Assembly (NCBI GenBank): GCA_030622375.1
Contig: JAUXGC010000101.1
Location: 1 to 5,163, forward strand
DNA: 5,163 bases
Source of the DNA: Sulfurovum sp.
Lineage (GTDB): Bacteria > Campylobacterota > Campylobacteria > Campylobacterales > Sulfurovaceae
Direction of reading: 5' to 3'
Both the position numbers and the translations under genes were made by a program. The notes below the pieces were generated by a model, which was not told where the DNA came from, ran no database searches, and saw only the letters and a program-made list of their open reading frames with translations. This document shows, piece after piece, positions 1-5,163 of the stretch (within the stretch, counting starts at the first letter, position 1; every line of letters begins with the position of its first letter).

Positions 1-421
1 GGCTACGATCCGACTTTATTTTATGGAGATGAGATTTTTCTATAGAAAAGGCATAGACTGCAAAACCTAAGTTACTTACAGAATTTAGCTCTTGTCCAGG
101 ATGGTAAATAACCATAGTGGAAGTACTTTTAGTCATCTGATGGTTAAAGTTAAACATAGAACTCTCTTTAGCCATAATGATAAAGCTCCACATATTTTCT
201 GGTGAAACCCCTTTTTGGTCAAGGTGACTGTCCAAATTGGTATATCCCACCTGTATCTCGGGTATGATGACTTGTTGTAACTGAGAAGAAAAAGTATCTC
301 CATCAAGTTGAGTAAAATCAAAAGTCCAATCTTTTGTAGCTTCATTAAATTGTTCATAGTTATCAAATTCAATATCGACCCATAGCAGTGGTTCTGTTTT
401 TTCATCTTTTAAATTATTCAT
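1..421 (-). CDS. AraC-family-like transcriptional regulator, N-terminal sensor part (partial, runs off left edge)
   Basis: An open leftward frame begins at ATG 421-419 and stays open for 140 codons to the left edge, so the C-terminus is missing. The protein begins MNNLKDEKTEPLLWVDIEFD. Segments such as WVDIEFDNYEQFNE (residues 14-27), DQKGVSPENMWSFIIMAKES (68-87) and VIYHPGQELNSVSNLGFAVY (104-123) match my recollection of the N-terminal sensor domain of a group of AraC-type activators, with RG-x-(S/T)-P-x-x-(M/V)-W-(S/T)-F and (Y/H)PPG-like signatures. The helix-turn-helix part would lie outside the window, so DNA binding is inferred. The gene is divergent from the first sulfatase with 98 bp between them. 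A 30-bp element with AraC-like direct half-sites lies in that gap, which makes it the likely local regulator and possibly autoregulated. No convincing Shine-Dalgarno precedes the ATG. An in-frame TTG at 436-434 is an alternative start. Open frame: high confidence; family: moderate. Confidence 0.65.
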   Translation of the reverse strand, partial: MNNLKDEKTEPLLWVDIEFDNYEQFNEATKDWTFDFTQLDGDTFSSQLQQVIIPEIQVGYTNLDSHLDQKGVSPENMWSFIIMAKESSMFNFNHQMTKSTSTMVIYHPGQELNSVSNLGFAVYAFSIEKSHLHKIKSDRS

Positions 422-426
422 AAAAA

Positions 427-435
427 AGTATAGCA
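427..435 (-). promoter_or_regulatory. Possible extended -10 (TGCTATACT) of the regulator gene
   Basis: Read on the minus strand, TGCTATACT fits an extended -10 (TGn plus TATACT, hexamer at 432-427). Transcription would then begin at about 421-419, at the ATG itself. This implies a leaderless mRNA or a start codon other than the one chosen. A second AT-rich -10 candidate (TATATT) lies further upstream, within the operator region, so this call is weak. Confidence 0.3.
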
Positions 436-440
436 AAATT

Positions 441-470
441 TCTATATAACTTTCCGAAATTGGATATAAA
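441..470 (+). promoter_or_regulatory. Predicted AraC-type operator, site 1, upstream of sulfatase 1
   Basis: This 30-bp element matches the one at 3875-3904 at 27 of 30 positions, differing only at positions 10, 11 and 20. It holds two similar 9-bp direct half-sites, TCTATATAA (441-449) and TGGATATAA (461-469), 20 bp apart, with TTCCGAAA between them (452-459). It ends 17 bp before the TATAAT at 488-493, so its right half occupies the -35 position, where no TTGACA-like hexamer is visible. That layout is typical of activator-dependent promoters of the AraC family. Its place in the divergent gap would also let it control the regulator gene. The binding protein is inferred. Confidence 0.7.
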
Positions 471-487
471 TATACTTTTTTTACAGT

Positions 488-493
488 TATAAT
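488..493 (+). promoter_or_regulatory. -10 box TATAAT of sulfatase 1
   Basis: A perfect TATAAT lies 32 bp upstream of the ATG and exactly 36 bp from the first T of the upstream TTCCG core. The -35 region (465-470, TATAAA) is poor, in line with dependence on an activator. AAGGA at 510-514 gives a ribosome site 5 nt before the start codon. Confidence 0.65.
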
Positions 494-519: not shown

Positions 520-2172
520 ATGTTAAAGAAAAAACTATCACATTTAGCCATAGCTTCATGCCTAGTAGCTCCTATGATGCTAGGTGCAGGAGATATTATA
601 CATGATGCGGAGTACTCAATACTAGAGTCGCAACACGCTGAAAAATGGGCGAAAGACGACAAAATAGTTGATGATAAACTTGCAAACTTCAAAAAGAAAA
701 ACGGAGGCAAATCTCCAAACATCATTTATATTCTTGTCGATGACCTCTCTTTTGGTGAGATGGGAATTCCAGAGCTTAACTATGTACGTGGTTCACAAAC
801 CCCAAATATCAATAAACTTTCAGATGAAGGTCTCTCTTTTATGCGTATGTACACAGAACCATCTTGTACACCATCTCGTGTAGCTATGATGACGGGTCGT
901 CACCCTGTAAGAAATGGTCTAGGTGAAGTAAAAGCAACGGTTGCAGGTGCTGGACTTGCTAAAAGTGAAGTTACCATCGCTGAAATCTTATCTAAGGTAG
1001 GCTATAACACTGTTCATATTGGTAAATGGCATATGGGTGATATCGCAGAGTCGTACCCACATACACAAGGGTTTGACTATGCGTCATTCCCTGTGCATCA
1101 ACAAGTTTTACTGGGCTTGATGACAAAAGAATCTGATAAAACACATGCACTCAAAGGTTGGCATGCGAGTTCAGGAAATGACCCATTTGCACTAGATGCA
1201 AAGTTTAAACCAAATGGTCTGGTCTATAATCTTGAAGGATACAAAGGGCAAGAAGCTAAAGAGGTTGACTTTAAAGCAGGTGAAGAGTGGACACAAAAGC
1301 ACTATGATGATATGAATGACAAATATCAACAGCAAGCAATGGAGCATCTAGGGAAACTAGCCAAACAAGACAAGCCTTTCTTCTTGCAGTATTGGCCACT
1401 TATCCCACTAGATTTCACACATACACCAGGTGCTGAACTTCAAATGTCAAATGGTGGAAGTGGTGTAGAATCTCTGTTTAAACTAGACAAATGGGTTGGA
1501 CAAATTGTCGATGAAGTCGATCGTTTAGGTATCGCTGAAAATACGATGATAGTCCTTATGGCTGACAATGGAAGAATGCGTCAATATGATAGTATCTTAG
1601 GTTTTTCAGGAACAATGTATCGTGGTGGTAAAGTTGATACTACAGAAGGTGCAGTGCGTGTAAATGCTTTTGCTAGATGGCCAGGTATGATAGAAAAAGA
1701 CAAACTAGCAGGCGATATGATACATATATCAGATATCTATACTACTTTTGCTAGAATTGCTGGAGGTACAGAATATATCCCTAGAGATAGAATTATTGAT
1801 GGATTAGACCAATCTGCACTTTTCTTAAATGGTGAAGGTAATGGTCGTAGAGATTATGTATTTATCTATAGTGGAGATACGCTTAAAGGTATCGTAAAAC
1901 AAAAGTTTAAATTAGAATTACCCGCACCTGGTGCCCCTGGTGTTGCTGCAAAGATGTATGACTTACAACGTGACCCTCGTGAAGAAGCACCTAGTATTGA
2001 GATATCTCTTTGGGCAGGTTCTGTATTTCAAGACTTGACACAAAGACATTTAATGCAGATGCAAAAATATCCAAATGCAAAAGTGGGTAAAGATACGCCT
2101 TATAGTGGCATATCAAATTTACGTCCTGAAAGTAAAAAAATGGTAGCTGATTTTGTAAGTTGGAGTAAGTAG
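520..2172 (+). CDS. Exported sulfatase (arylsulfatase-like, formylglycine type), canonical active site
   Basis: This 550-aa protein of the alkaline-phosphatase/sulfatase superfamily is predicted to hydrolyse a sulfate ester in the periplasm. The start is ATG with AAGGA 5 nt upstream. Residues 1-23 form a Sec signal (KKK, hydrophobic stretch, small residues); IASC at 11-14 resembles a lipobox but sits too early in the hydrophobic core. A charged extension at about 28-64 precedes the catalytic domain. By analogy with Pseudomonas arylsulfatase, metal ligands are D74, D75, D349 and N350. C116-T-P-S-R120 followed by T125-G-R127 is the formylglycine signature. K169, H171 (GKWHMG), H301 (FTHTP) and K371 (YRGGK) complete the pocket. 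MYDLQRDPREE at 479-489 is the usual C-terminal sulfatase segment. EGAVR (376-380) replaces the common EGG(I/V)R. The cysteine needs a maturase that is not in this window. Family: very confident; substrate: unknown. Confidence 0.93.
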   Translation: MLKKKLSHLAIASCLVAPMMLGAGDIIHDAEYSILESQHAEKWAKDDKIVDDKLANFKKKNGGKSPNIIYILVDDLSFGEMGIPELNYVRGSQTPNINKLSDEGLSFMRMYTEPSCTPSRVAMMTGRHPVRNGLGEVKATVAGAGLAKSEVTIAEILSKVGYNTVHIGKWHMGDIAESYPHTQGFDYASFPVHQQVLLGLMTKESDKTHALKGWHASSGNDPFALDAKFKPNGLVYNLEGYKGQEAKEVDFKAGEEWTQKHYDDMNDKYQQQAMEHLGKLAKQDKPFFLQYWPLIPLDFTHTPGAELQMSNGGSGVESLFKLDKWVGQIVDEVDRLGIAENTMIVLMADNGRMRQYDSILGFSGTMYRGGKVDTTEGAVRVNAFARWPGMIEKDKLAGDMIHISDIYTTFARIAGGTEYIPRDRIIDGLDQSALFLNGEGNGRRDYVFIYSGDTLKGIVKQKFKLELPAPGAPGVAAKMYDLQRDPREEAPSIEISLWAGSVFQDLTQRHLMQMQKYPNAKVGKDTPYSGISNLRPESKKMVADFVSWSK

Positions 2173-2225: not shown

Positions 2226-3158
2226 TTAATAGTCTACACTAAAGCCAATTCCGAAATTGTATCCCTCTAAACCATCTGCCTGTGTGGTGCTCATATCAAA
2301 ATAGAAATTCTCAACAAGAGATAGGCTATGGGGCGTATGCCAATAAGCAATTGCTCCTAGAGTTGAGTATGTATTAAACTGTACACTTTTTTCAATAGCA
2401 CCAGTTAAATAGTTTGCATTCAAGTAAGCTTCTAGTGTCAAATAGTTTGTATGGTAATATAGTAGTTCTTCTGTCTCTGCTCCGAGTAAAAGAGTCGTTA
2501 CGCTTGACTCAGTGTTAAATTTGCTAAGTTCATCAAATGAAAATGTAGATTTTGTTTCATAAAGTTTGTAGCCTAGTTTTACATAAGGTTTAAAGTCTGT
2601 CATCTTAGGTTTATATTCAACAAGAGCAAATAGTTTATAGCTAAGGTTGTCATTATACTCTTCATTAAAAAGATCTTCTATGGCATCGCCTAAATCATCA
2701 TCGGGTTTTTTAACACTGGCTCCTGAACGGGAGTAGATGAACTCAACTCCACCAGATATATGTAACTCCTTACTCGCCTTATATTTAATACCACCACCAA
2801 GACCAGCAACATAGGTTCTCAAGTGACTCTCATGGTCTAGGTTAATATTTGAACCTATATCAACACCCTCTGATATAGTTACATTACTATAGCCAACATT
2901 TCCAACCATAAAGTAATTAAGAGAGCTGTCTCCCGAATCAAAATCATAAGTAAATGGTAGATTATAGACTCTCATATCTACACCTACATTTGTAAAGTGA
3001 TAAAGTCCCGTACTAAGAGAATCTTGAGCTGTAAATATTAGTAGCGCATTGATGTTTGCTAGATGTGCTTTTTTTACAATATCTTCAACTGAATCAGCAC
3101 ATATATTTGTACAAAACAATAGAGCTGAAAATGTAAGTGTAGTTATTTTGTATGTCAA
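2226..3158 (-). CDS. Predicted outer-membrane beta-barrel protein (310 aa)
   Basis: The protein starts with a Sec signal (TYKITTLTFSALLFCTNICA, cleavage probably after A21). It then shows repeated stretches of alternating hydrophobic and polar residues with aromatic girdles, for example 112-127, 131-144, 172-183, 190-201, 238-250 and 264-274. It ends NFGIGFSVDY, with the C-terminal aromatic residue typical of BAM-assembled barrels. An acidic loop (PDDDLGDAIEDLFNEEYND, 152-170) is probably surface exposed. The ALLIFTAQDSLSTGLYHF region recalls the solitary outer-membrane autotransporter-type barrel family (Omp_AT), but I hold that loosely. The only usable start in frame is TTG at 3158; an ATG 14 nt upstream is out of frame (see findings). 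It lies downstream of the lipoprotein gene on the same strand, with 96 bp and a hairpin between. A TTACTT/TACTAT promoter (-10 at 3176-3171) is possible. Role: unknown; it could be a channel or surface protein for the sulfatase substrate. Confidence 0.75.
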   Translation of the reverse strand: MTYKITTLTFSALLFCTNICADSVEDIVKKAHLANINALLIFTAQDSLSTGLYHFTNVGVDMRVYNLPFTYDFDSGDSSLNYFMVGNVGYSNVTISEGVDIGSNINLDHESHLRTYVAGLGGGIKYKASKELHISGGVEFIYSRSGASVKKPDDDLGDAIEDLFNEEYNDNLSYKLFALVEYKPKMTDFKPYVKLGYKLYETKSTFSFDELSKFNTESSVTTLLLGAETEELLYYHTNYLTLEAYLNANYLTGAIEKSVQFNTYSTLGAIAYWHTPHSLSLVENFYFDMSTTQADGLEGYNFGIGFSVDY

Positions 3159-3254: not shown

Positions 3255-3767
3255 TTAGATCTCTGCAAGCATCTTTTTAATAGCATAATTTAAACGCTTC
3301 TTAGCTTCTTTTGCAGGTAAGTTCTTAGCGTCACCTTCTGCTGTTGAAAGACCTATGATTGCTCCGGTATCAGCATCTACAAGAATTAACGCTATGCCTG
3401 ATACAGGTTTGCTATGTAGGGTTTCTTGACCCTCTTTATTGATCTTCTCTTCAATTGCATCCATATCTGTACCTGCTATATAGGCAACATAAAAATCTGG
3501 GTCTCTTACAACCGGAATTTTACCTTTTTTAGCCAGTTCAGCATTGATCATTTGTTTCATTTCTGCATCAATGTCCAGATTATCGCTGCGTTGTGTATTG
3601 TCAACAATACCACTGCCCTCGATGATCTCATATGTTTTGTATCCAGCTAAATTAACTTTTTCTGACGTGAATGCTTCTACTTCTATATCTTTAGTACTGG
3701 TACAAGCTGAAACCCCTATGATCACTAATGTAATCATCACACCTTTTAATACATTTAATCTTGACAT
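3255..3767 (-). CDS. DUF4136-like lipoprotein (170 aa)
   Basis: A lipoprotein signal spans residues 1-21 and ends in the lipobox V19-S-A-C22. T at position +2 favours sorting to the outer membrane by the enterobacterial rule. The mature part matches the general pattern I associate with DUF4136: a YKTYEI strand (43-48), an INAELAKKG helix (74-82), DPDFYVAY (89-96), a strand-turn-strand with DADTGAIIGLSTAEG (131-145), and a C-terminal helix RLNYAIKKMLAEI (158-170). Homologues are usually of similar length; their function is unknown. The start is ATG with AAGGA 6 nt upstream. It is transcribed divergently from sulfatase 2 across a 191-bp gap. An extended -10 and a weaker copy of the sulfatase operator at the conserved distance suggest it belongs to the same regulon. 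Lipoprotein: very confident; DUF4136: moderate. Confidence 0.8.
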   Translation of the reverse strand: MSRLNVLKGVMITLVIIGVSACTSTKDIEVEAFTSEKVNLAGYKTYEIIEGSGIVDNTQRSDNLDIDAEMKQMINAELAKKGKIPVVRDPDFYVAYIAGTDMDAIEEKINKEGQETLHSKPVSGIALILVDADTGAIIGLSTAEGDAKNLPAKEAKKRLNYAIKKMLAEI

Positions 3768-3793: not shown

Positions 3794-3802
3794 ATTATAG
3801 CA
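3794..3802 (-). promoter_or_regulatory. Extended -10 (TGCTATAAT) of the lipoprotein gene
   Basis: Read on the minus strand, TGC followed by TATAAT (hexamer 3799-3794) is a perfect extended -10, 32 nt from the ATG, the same distance as for sulfatase 1. No good -35 hexamer stands 16-18 bp upstream. The position is instead occupied by the GATA part of the operator-like element at 3821-3835. Confidence 0.65.
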
Positions 3803-3820: not shown

Positions 3821-3835
3821 TATCTCTTTTCGGAA
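3821..3835 (-). promoter_or_regulatory. Weaker operator-like site 3 upstream of the lipoprotein gene
   Basis: On the minus strand this reads TTCCGAAAAGAGATA, matching the same part of site 2 (TTCCGAAAATGGATA) at 13 of 15 positions and site 1 at 12 of 15. The first T of TTCCG lies 36 bp from the first base of the lipoprotein -10, exactly as at both sulfatase promoters. The distal half-site that would fall at about 3838-3846 is not well conserved, so binding may be weaker or rely on one half-site plus contacts with polymerase. Confidence 0.5.
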
Positions 3836-3858
3836 AATATTTTGAATTATTCTTTCCC

Positions 3859-3874: not shown

Positions 3875-3904
3875 TCTATATAATATTCCGAAAATGGATA
3901 TAAA
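3875..3904 (+). promoter_or_regulatory. Predicted AraC-type operator, site 2, upstream of sulfatase 2
   Basis: This is the counterpart of the element at 441-470 (27/30 identical). The direct half-sites TCTATATAA (3875-3883) and TGGATATAA (3895-3903) are 20 bp apart, with TTCCGAAA at 3886-3893. It ends 17 bp before the TATTAT at 3922-3927 and covers the -35 position. Identical placement over 3.4 kb, while the flanks have diverged, points to selection on a binding site. Confidence 0.7.
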
Positions 3905-3918
3905 AATTGTAATATTTC

Positions 3919-3927
3919 TGATATTAT
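3919..3927 (+). promoter_or_regulatory. Extended -10 (TGATATTAT) of sulfatase 2
   Basis: TATTAT at 3922-3927 is preceded by TG at the extended -10 position. It lies 36 bp from the TTCCG core of site 2 and 37 bp before the ATG. No TTGACA-like -35 is visible. AAGGA at 3948-3952 stands 6 nt before the start codon. Confidence 0.55.
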
Positions 3928-3958: not shown

Positions 3959-5163
3959 ATGTTAAAAACAAAAATGTCGCATTTCGCTATAGCTTCACTA
4001 CTCATTGTGGGTGCTACTGCAATCAATGCAAAACCTATTGTTCATGACGCAGAATTCTATGTACTGAATGTACAGAACGGAGATAAGTGGGCGAAAGAAG
4101 ACAAAGGCTTAGATGAAAAACTCGCAGCATTAAAGAAAAAGTTTGGTACACCACCAAATATCATCCATATTATGATAGATGATACCGCTGTTGGAGAGAT
4201 AGGTATTCCTGCAATTCAAAAGGTTCGTGGTTTTGAAACTCCCAACCTAAATAAGATGGCAAGTGATGGTATCAACTTTATGAGAATGTACACAGAACCT
4301 TCATGTACTCAAAGTAGAGCAGCAGCCATGACTGGTCGACACCCTATTAGAAATGGTATGTACAATGTCGGTTTTCCTTATGAAAACGGTGGATTACCAA
4401 AAGATGAAGTTACTATGGGTGAAGTCTTAATTGAAGCAGGTTATGCAACTGCGTTTTATGGTAAATGGCACTTAGGTGATGTTGAAGAAAGTTATGCTAC
4501 AAATCAAGGTTTTGATGATGCACTATGGACTCCATACAACCAAGCAACAAGTATGTATCTTCCACAATTTGAAGCTGCTGGTGCAGTTGCTCCTACTGCT
4601 CTATACCCAGAGACTTTTCCACATGACCCTTATGATATAGATAAAGGATGGCGGGTAAAAGGTTTAGTATGGCATTTAGAGGGTACTAAAGGTGGAGAGG
4701 TTAAAGAATTTTTGCCTCCAACTGATCTTAAAAACTGGTATGCAGGTATGGAACAAGAAGAGTCAAGAACGATGGCATTTATAGAGAAAAATGCTGCTGC
4801 TAAAAAGCCTTTTTATGTTTCTTACTGGCCAAGCTTGATAGCCTTTGCACCTTTCCCTGAGACTAAAACACTTTCACGTGGATTTTTGCAAGAAGGTCTA
4901 GCAAGACTTGATCCATTTGTAGGAAAGATGATGAAGCGACTCAAAGAACTTGGAATCTCTGAAAACACCCTTGTTGTATTTATGGCTGATAATGGACCTA
5001 TGACACATAATGGACCTGCTGGTATGGTTGAAACACTTTACCGTGGTGGAAAAGGTGATTATATGGAAGGTGGTATTAGGGTTGCAGCTATGGCATCATG
5101 GCCTGGTATGATTGAGCCTGGTCAGACAATTGGAGATATTATTCATATTACTGATTTATATAC
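3959..5163 (+). CDS. Exported sulfatase-family protein, atypical active site (partial, runs off right edge)
   Basis: The frame is open from ATG 3959 to the window end (401 codons). It is a paralogue of the sulfatase at 520-2172: the first 130 or so residues align without gaps, with about 41 of 65 identical over residues 66-130. A Sec signal spans 1-24 (cleavage after INA), followed by the same charged extension (HDAEFYVLN, KWAKEDK, LDEKLAALKKK). Metal ligands D74, D75, D344 and N345 are kept, as are C116, R120, T125-G-R127, K169, H171 (GKWHLG) and K365 (YRGGKGD, then EGGIRV). Two departures stand out. The maturation motif is C-T-Q-S-R rather than C-T-P-S-R. The segment after YWP (289-291) reads SLIAFAPFPE and lacks the histidine found in FTHTP of the paralogue. 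It may have a different substrate, altered chemistry or reduced activity. Its promoter carries the same operator. Superfamily: very confident; activity: uncertain. Confidence 0.9.
   Translation, partial: MLKTKMSHFAIASLLIVGATAINAKPIVHDAEFYVLNVQNGDKWAKEDKGLDEKLAALKKKFGTPPNIIHIMIDDTAVGEIGIPAIQKVRGFETPNLNKMASDGINFMRMYTEPSCTQSRAAAMTGRHPIRNGMYNVGFPYENGGLPKDEVTMGEVLIEAGYATAFYGKWHLGDVEESYATNQGFDDALWTPYNQATSMYLPQFEAAGAVAPTALYPETFPHDPYDIDKGWRVKGLVWHLEGTKGGEVKEFLPPTDLKNWYAGMEQEESRTMAFIEKNAAAKKPFYVSYWPSLIAFAPFPETKTLSRGFLQEGLARLDPFVGKMMKRLKELGISENTLVVFMADNGPMTHNGPAGMVETLYRGGKGDYMEGGIRVAAMASWPGMIEPGQTIGDIIHITDLY

Follow-up and report, generated by a model that had tools for sequence, protein, structure and literature searches.

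What purpose is served by a nearly identical 30-bp element that lies at one fixed distance from the predicted -10 boxes of two sulfatase genes? The question is raised by a contig of Sulfurovum sp. (the window, analyzed at its whole length of 5163 bases), which belongs to a genome assembly that is 76% complete. We consider, with a probability of about 0.82, that a 17-bp core within the element is a class II activator site of an AraC-type protein encoded next to the first sulfatase gene; binding, activation and a ligand are what we infer from the sequence. The locus most likely represents a new regulator with its regulon, of a well-known kind. Positions of all features are collected in Table 1; the -10 boxes, start sites and positions relative to them (-50 to -34) are predictions from sequence.

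An earlier note on this DNA had reported that the two elements agree in 27 of 30 bases, and that each ends 17 bp before a -10 hexamer. A recount found both statements to be exact. When the two sulfatase intergenic regions were compared, the best ungapped 30-mer match was also 27, while 200 mononucleotide shuffles gave a mean of 19.6 and a maximum of 22. We conclude that the likeness of these intergenic stretches is well above chance. With up to three mismatches allowed, the 30-mer was found in two places in its own genome (none for the reversed control) and in no place across 99 other genomes of the family. A shorter common core emerged from the regions upstream of sulfatase relatives, and a search with TTNCCGAAANNRGATA in 78 genomes of the genus revealed 20 places in eight genomes; five of these genomes account for 17 places. 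Alignment of 16 promoter sites (site A of genome G131 and a paralog site, both described below, were excluded) yielded a 17-bp core, TTTNCCGAAANNRGATA, in which CCG and G are invariant. TANNNT, used here as the pattern of a -10 box, is present exactly 21 bp after the core in 13 of the 16 rows and at 22 bp in G110; of the remaining rows, both from G109, one has TTTAAT at 21 bp and one has no recognizable box. The left arm of the 30-mer, TCTATATAA, occurs among the 16 rows only at the window's two sulfatase promoters, and is also present at the excluded G131 site A. Since other target promoters have the core alone in common, the 30-bp stretch was rejected as a regulon motif. What survives of the motif as first proposed is its fixed distance from the -10, its conservation in relatives, and its position before several genes; the left arm falls outside the consensus.

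The window contains a third site that the earlier note did not mention: an exact core on the minus strand, with the same 21-bp spacing, in front of a gene for a DUF4136-like lipoprotein. The match could in principle be a relic of promoter duplication, with both sulfatase promoters inherited from one ancestor and no regulator involved, given that the two sulfatases are paralogs (46% identity) and that both elements carry TCTATATAA, which recurs among the compared sites only at G131 site A. The third site already disfavors such descent, and the same core with the 21-bp spacing precedes further unrelated genes (for an outer-membrane protein, a fatty-acid cis/trans isomerase, an RND adaptor and a patatin) with different flanks. 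We regard common descent as highly improbable. The earlier preference for an activator site over a recent duplication gains from the third site, which stands before an unrelated gene; the earlier interpretation as a whole holds in part.

At all three window promoters the core occupies positions -50 to -34 relative to the predicted start, close to the class II position of MarA and SoxS, and no -35 hexamer is present. The lack of a -35, previously pointed out for the sulfatase promoters, is weak evidence on its own, because about 89% of Campylobacter jejuni promoters have no clear -35 box according to PMC3656092. A fixed distance to the -10 and a missing -35 would also be expected if the core were part of a promoter recognized by an alternative sigma factor. 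However, the -10 is an ordinary TATAAT, often found after T tracts, as in C. jejuni sigma70 promoters (PMC3656092), and the core, which measures 17 bp, has a second, tandem copy 51 bp further upstream in locus L046 and is elsewhere found in reverse, at 47 bp from a -10. A promoter for an alternative sigma factor is therefore a very improbable explanation.

The candidate activator is encoded beside site 1 by a gene that is divergent from sulfatase 1 and that the earlier note had also left unnamed. The contig end leaves an N-terminal part of it, which is 68% identical over residues 2-137 of the full-length protein L046:496-1470 (translated match). Full-length relatives are about 325 residues long, and HTH_18 was above its cut-off in all six that were scanned, in agreement with the C-terminal DNA-binding domain of ca. 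100 residues with two helix-turn-helix motifs that defines the AraC/XylS family. A confident structural model of one full-length relative consists of a cupin-like N-terminal domain and a MarA-like fold; the modeled cupin-like fold would correspond to the N-terminal ligand-sensing domain of this family. The regulator's own predicted -10 lies on the opposite strand, 15-18 bp from the core in five of six loci (37 bp in G109). In each of the six (window 419-432; L046, L038, L050, L039 and L058), only 5-6 bases separate its end from the start codon, and so the prediction is a regulator transcript with almost no leader. The site common to the regulator and sulfatase 1 may set the level of the regulator. 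A homologue is encoded by Sulfurovum sp. CS9 (P0008). An order-level search (E up to 1e-60) revealed the regulator in one of the 398 genomes drawn, the window's own; the other four genomes known to carry it were evidently outside the draw.

Within the family, the regulator was found in five of 175 genomes, and the exact 17-mer in 23 places in 13 of the 175. The five regulator genomes contain 14 exact-core places, versus none for the reversed control, and in 11 of these TANNNT is found at 21-22 bp (two of the 11 are one duplicated G110 locus). The other 170 genomes contain nine exact-core places, in eight genomes, versus about 42 for the reversed control. None of these nine has TANNNT at 21-22 bp; eight are inside mechanically listed open reading frames (ORFs) of at least 90 residues (the ORF of L206 is doubtful), and the ninth, L208, is between ORFs. 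As judged from these searches, the regulator and promoter-spaced exact cores are confined to the same five of the 175 genomes. It is conceivable that another protein, such as a response regulator, binds the core and that the AraC gene is a mere neighbor or another target: the core is upstream of the AraC gene too, as it would be for a target, and binding by the AraC protein is something that we infer. The coincidence of the regulator with promoter-spaced exact cores argues against this, as does one case of a paralogous regulator that comes with an altered core of its own and unchanged spacing. MarA-type proteins contact successive major grooves with two helix-turn-helix motifs, and a core of two boxes, about one helical turn apart, suits two such motifs. 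We therefore consider a different regulator unlikely, and binding by the AraC-type protein remains the preferred explanation.

The paralog is found at G131 C165, where a sulfatase gene adjoins the gene of a second regulator (51% identity). The core at this sulfatase is a variant that differs at four positions and lies exactly 21 bp from TATAAT. Cores with up to four mismatches make up 0.18% of places. When the 685 TATAAT hexamers in the examined loci were inspected (overlapping loci were counted repeatedly), 36 had such a core at 21 bp, 33 with 0-1 mismatches and three with four; these are taken to be the known sites and three overlapping copies of the C165 variant. The paralog has H255, Q301 and H304, where N, H and Q are present in 32, 32 and 28 of 34 close homologues, respectively. 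Residues 255 and 304 are within model helices 250-261 and 302-313, and residue 301 directly precedes the latter.

The specificity of core and spacing was evaluated in the window's own genome and in G131. At up to one mismatch, TANNNT is exactly 21 bp away in 10 of 16 places, while any other spacing from 10 to 39 is represented at most three times in either genome; one of the ten places, G000 C29, sits in an ORF, probably by chance. Among two-mismatch places in the same two genomes, 4 of 95 have TANNNT at 21 bp. Extension of the regulon by means of mismatches was rejected, since the counts are at or below the reversed control and two-mismatch places have no peak at 21 bp.

Several observations weigh against an AraC-bound class II site. 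With up to one mismatch, six genomes contain 29 places, versus 31 for the reversed control; with two mismatches, the own genome contains 55 (74 for the control) and G131 contains 56 (75 for the control). One exact match in the own genome (C179) falls in a gene, TANNNT is missing at 21 bp from G131 site A and from the two cluster cores of G109, and the second and third sulfatases of G131 have no consensus core. The co-occurrence partly counts shared descent, because the five genomes are related, and the Fisher values assume that sites are independent of each other. The window copy of the regulator ends, with the contig, before its DNA-binding half, and its specificity is therefore read from relatives. 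As for the paralog, 26 loci from the sulfatase search (L011-L036, including the own and regulator genomes) were scanned on both strands for cores with up to four mismatches 21 bp from TANNNT. The scan recovered known sites (L022 twice, L032) together with eight other rows of 3-4 mismatches out of 4347, which is about the number expected by chance (two are one duplicated locus). At L013:52-68 (G140) a core with four mismatches is exactly 21 bp before the TATTAT of a sulfatase, and at L017:1344-1360 (G121) a core with three mismatches is exactly 21 bp before the TATACT of a sulfatase; both genomes are regulator-free. These weak cores arose by chance or are diverged sites of other AraC proteins. 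They weaken the paralog argument, which stands on one case.

The argument is thus carried by the exact core and its spacing, because counts with mismatches do not stand out. At up to one mismatch the own genome contains six places, the three window promoters and three places inside ORFs. Because the reversed control yields at least as many places as soon as a mismatch is tolerated, the credible set in this genome consists of the three sites on this contig, which are also all the promoter-type sites seen in it. The genome scan that had been suggested earlier accordingly gave a mixed outcome: sites are concentrated in relatives, above all in G131, and more weakly in the own genome.

In AUK004 (G131), the site stands before genes for a sulfatase, a DUF4136-like protein, a patatin (PF01734), a barrel protein of the outer membrane (PF13505) and a fatty-acid cis/trans isomerase (PF06934, 1e-137), as well as before an RND efflux operon made up of an adaptor (TIGR01730), an ACR_tran pump and an OEP outer-membrane protein. 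No core was found at the G131 C40 sulfatase (55% identity). In NORP77, the site precedes a sulfatase, behind which lie an NMT1-like gene and another sulfatase; the sulfatase of CSMAG_270 likewise has an NMT1-like gene behind it, and then two genes judged outer-membrane-like by eye (no Pfam match). Two more CSMAG_270 sites precede a 268-residue gene without a Pfam match and a barrel-like gene (PF13505 below cut-off). The NMT1/THI5-like genes that follow the sulfatase in two genomes (L062:2984-4090 and L059:3116-4216) possibly encode a binding protein for the product. The earlier note expected sulfatase, maturase or transporter targets; the targets found extend beyond sulfatases, and none of eight maturase-family loci (FGE, PF03781) fetched from relatives has a core at up to two mismatches. 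No FGE family member was found in the 76%-complete own genome; the other five of six genomes searched have one.

Additional arrangements were observed. At L046:1500-1567, two tandem cores, separated by 51 bp or about five helical turns, precede an outer-membrane protein gene, and the upstream core of the pair has 30-bp identity to window site 1. A reversed core with one mismatch is located exactly 47 bp from TAAAAT, before a c-type cytochrome gene (PF13435), in both G131 and G110 (L189:1264-1280 and L083:1501-1517), and the arrangement resembles a class I site. In the window, the expected formylglycine site of sulfatase 2 (4304-4318) reads CTQSR versus CTPSR in sulfatase 1. A 310-residue ORF between the sulfatases (2226-3158, minus strand) has no Pfam match, and no core was found upstream of it at up to two mismatches.

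Table 1. Location of the sites, predicted -10 boxes and genes in the window
Feature	Position	Strand	Basis or remark
AraC-family regulator gene, N-terminal 140 codons, cut by contig end	2..421	-	translated match; start codon 421-419
-10 box TATACT, regulator gene, predicted	427..432	-	sequence, prediction only
30-bp element, site 1	441..470	+	27 of 30 bases shared with site 2
17-bp core, site 1, CTTTCCGAAATTGGATA, one mismatch	450..466	+	-50 to -34 from predicted start
-10 box TATAAT, sulfatase 1, predicted	488..493	+	sequence
Sulfatase 1, PF00884, CTPSR motif	520..2172	+	family match
DUF4136-like lipoprotein gene, third target	3255..3767	-	PF13590, 32.5 bits, just below 32.8 cut-off
-10 box TATAAT, DUF4136-like gene, predicted	3794..3799	-	sequence
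17-bp core, site 3, TTTTCCGAAAAGAGATA, exact	3821..3837	-	sequence
30-bp element, site 2	3875..3904	+	27 of 30 bases shared with site 1
17-bp core, site 2, TATTCCGAAAATGGATA, one mismatch	3884..3900	+	sequence
-10 box TATTAT, sulfatase 2, predicted	3922..3927	+	sequence
Sulfatase 2, PF00884, CTQSR replacing CTPSR, cut by contig end	3959..5161	+	

The closest known systems are those of MarA, SoxS, Rob and RamA. According to PMC10268841, the activator site at their class II promoters replaces the -35 region before an ordinary -10, as here, MarA and SoxS class II promoters are without a -35, and class I promoters are resembled by the reversed, more distant core described above. The regulator differs from the MarA group in its length, in its cupin-like N-terminal domain and in adjoining a target; only its DNA-binding half resembles MarA and SoxS in sequence, and curated MarA/SoxS models, where listed, scored 20-29 bits versus cut-offs of 174-250, so that by these models the protein is not of the MarA or SoxS type. 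The core sequence probably differs from the marbox as well. The best NCBIfam matches, extending across most of the protein, are EutR (NF007522) and AndR (NF041686), regulators of ethanolamine and anthranilate genes; in four relatives, EutR scored 77-89 bits and AndR 81-100 bits versus cut-offs of 319 and 350, and the relatives are not members of either family. The top Foldseek matches of the regulator model are CuxR, ToxT and Rns, all of them AraC proteins whose sensor domain structures are known, at 10-15% identity; by their titles, the ToxT and Rns structure entries include fatty-acid-bound forms. PsrR of Wolinella succinogenes, another Campylobacterota AraC-family regulator, is needed for polysulfide reductase according to PMC6682613; it differs by its respiratory target.

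We propose that the regulator encoded next to site 1 would activate the three window promoters from a class II position. Its two helix-turn-helix motifs would contact CCGAAA and GATA, in two successive major grooves around -42, and RNA polymerase would be recruited where there is no -35 element. The cupin-like N-terminal domain would sense a small ligand, and the site between the regulator and sulfatase 1 would also tune the regulator's own nearly leaderless promoter. By binding this site, the AraC-type protein likely switches on genes for sulfatases, for the outer membrane, for efflux and for lipids. That the ligand is lipid-like is a guess, made because the targets in relatives include the fatty-acid cis/trans isomerase, patatin, the RND pump and outer-membrane proteins. 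A broader and distinctly more tentative picture is that of a small, patchily distributed envelope regulon of Sulfurovum relatives, in which a cupin-sensor AraC activator might respond to a lipid-like or sulfated compound. Its targets would be periplasmic sulfatases, outer-membrane proteins, RND efflux and membrane fatty-acid isomerization. It would work as Mar-type activators do (class II at -42 and, in reversed orientation, class I at -68), and a rewired duplicate regulator would have three recognition-helix residues changed and an altered core at unchanged spacing.

A literature search, judged mostly by title, found no description of such a regulon. A motif recognized by eye has become a pair of candidate regulator and site, with a list of targets in Sulfurovum relatives, and sulfatase genes are tied to membrane functions. 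The system could be used to test how AraC activators act at promoters that lack a -35; the paralog pair, for its part, offers a natural experiment on the joint change of recognition helices and their sites.
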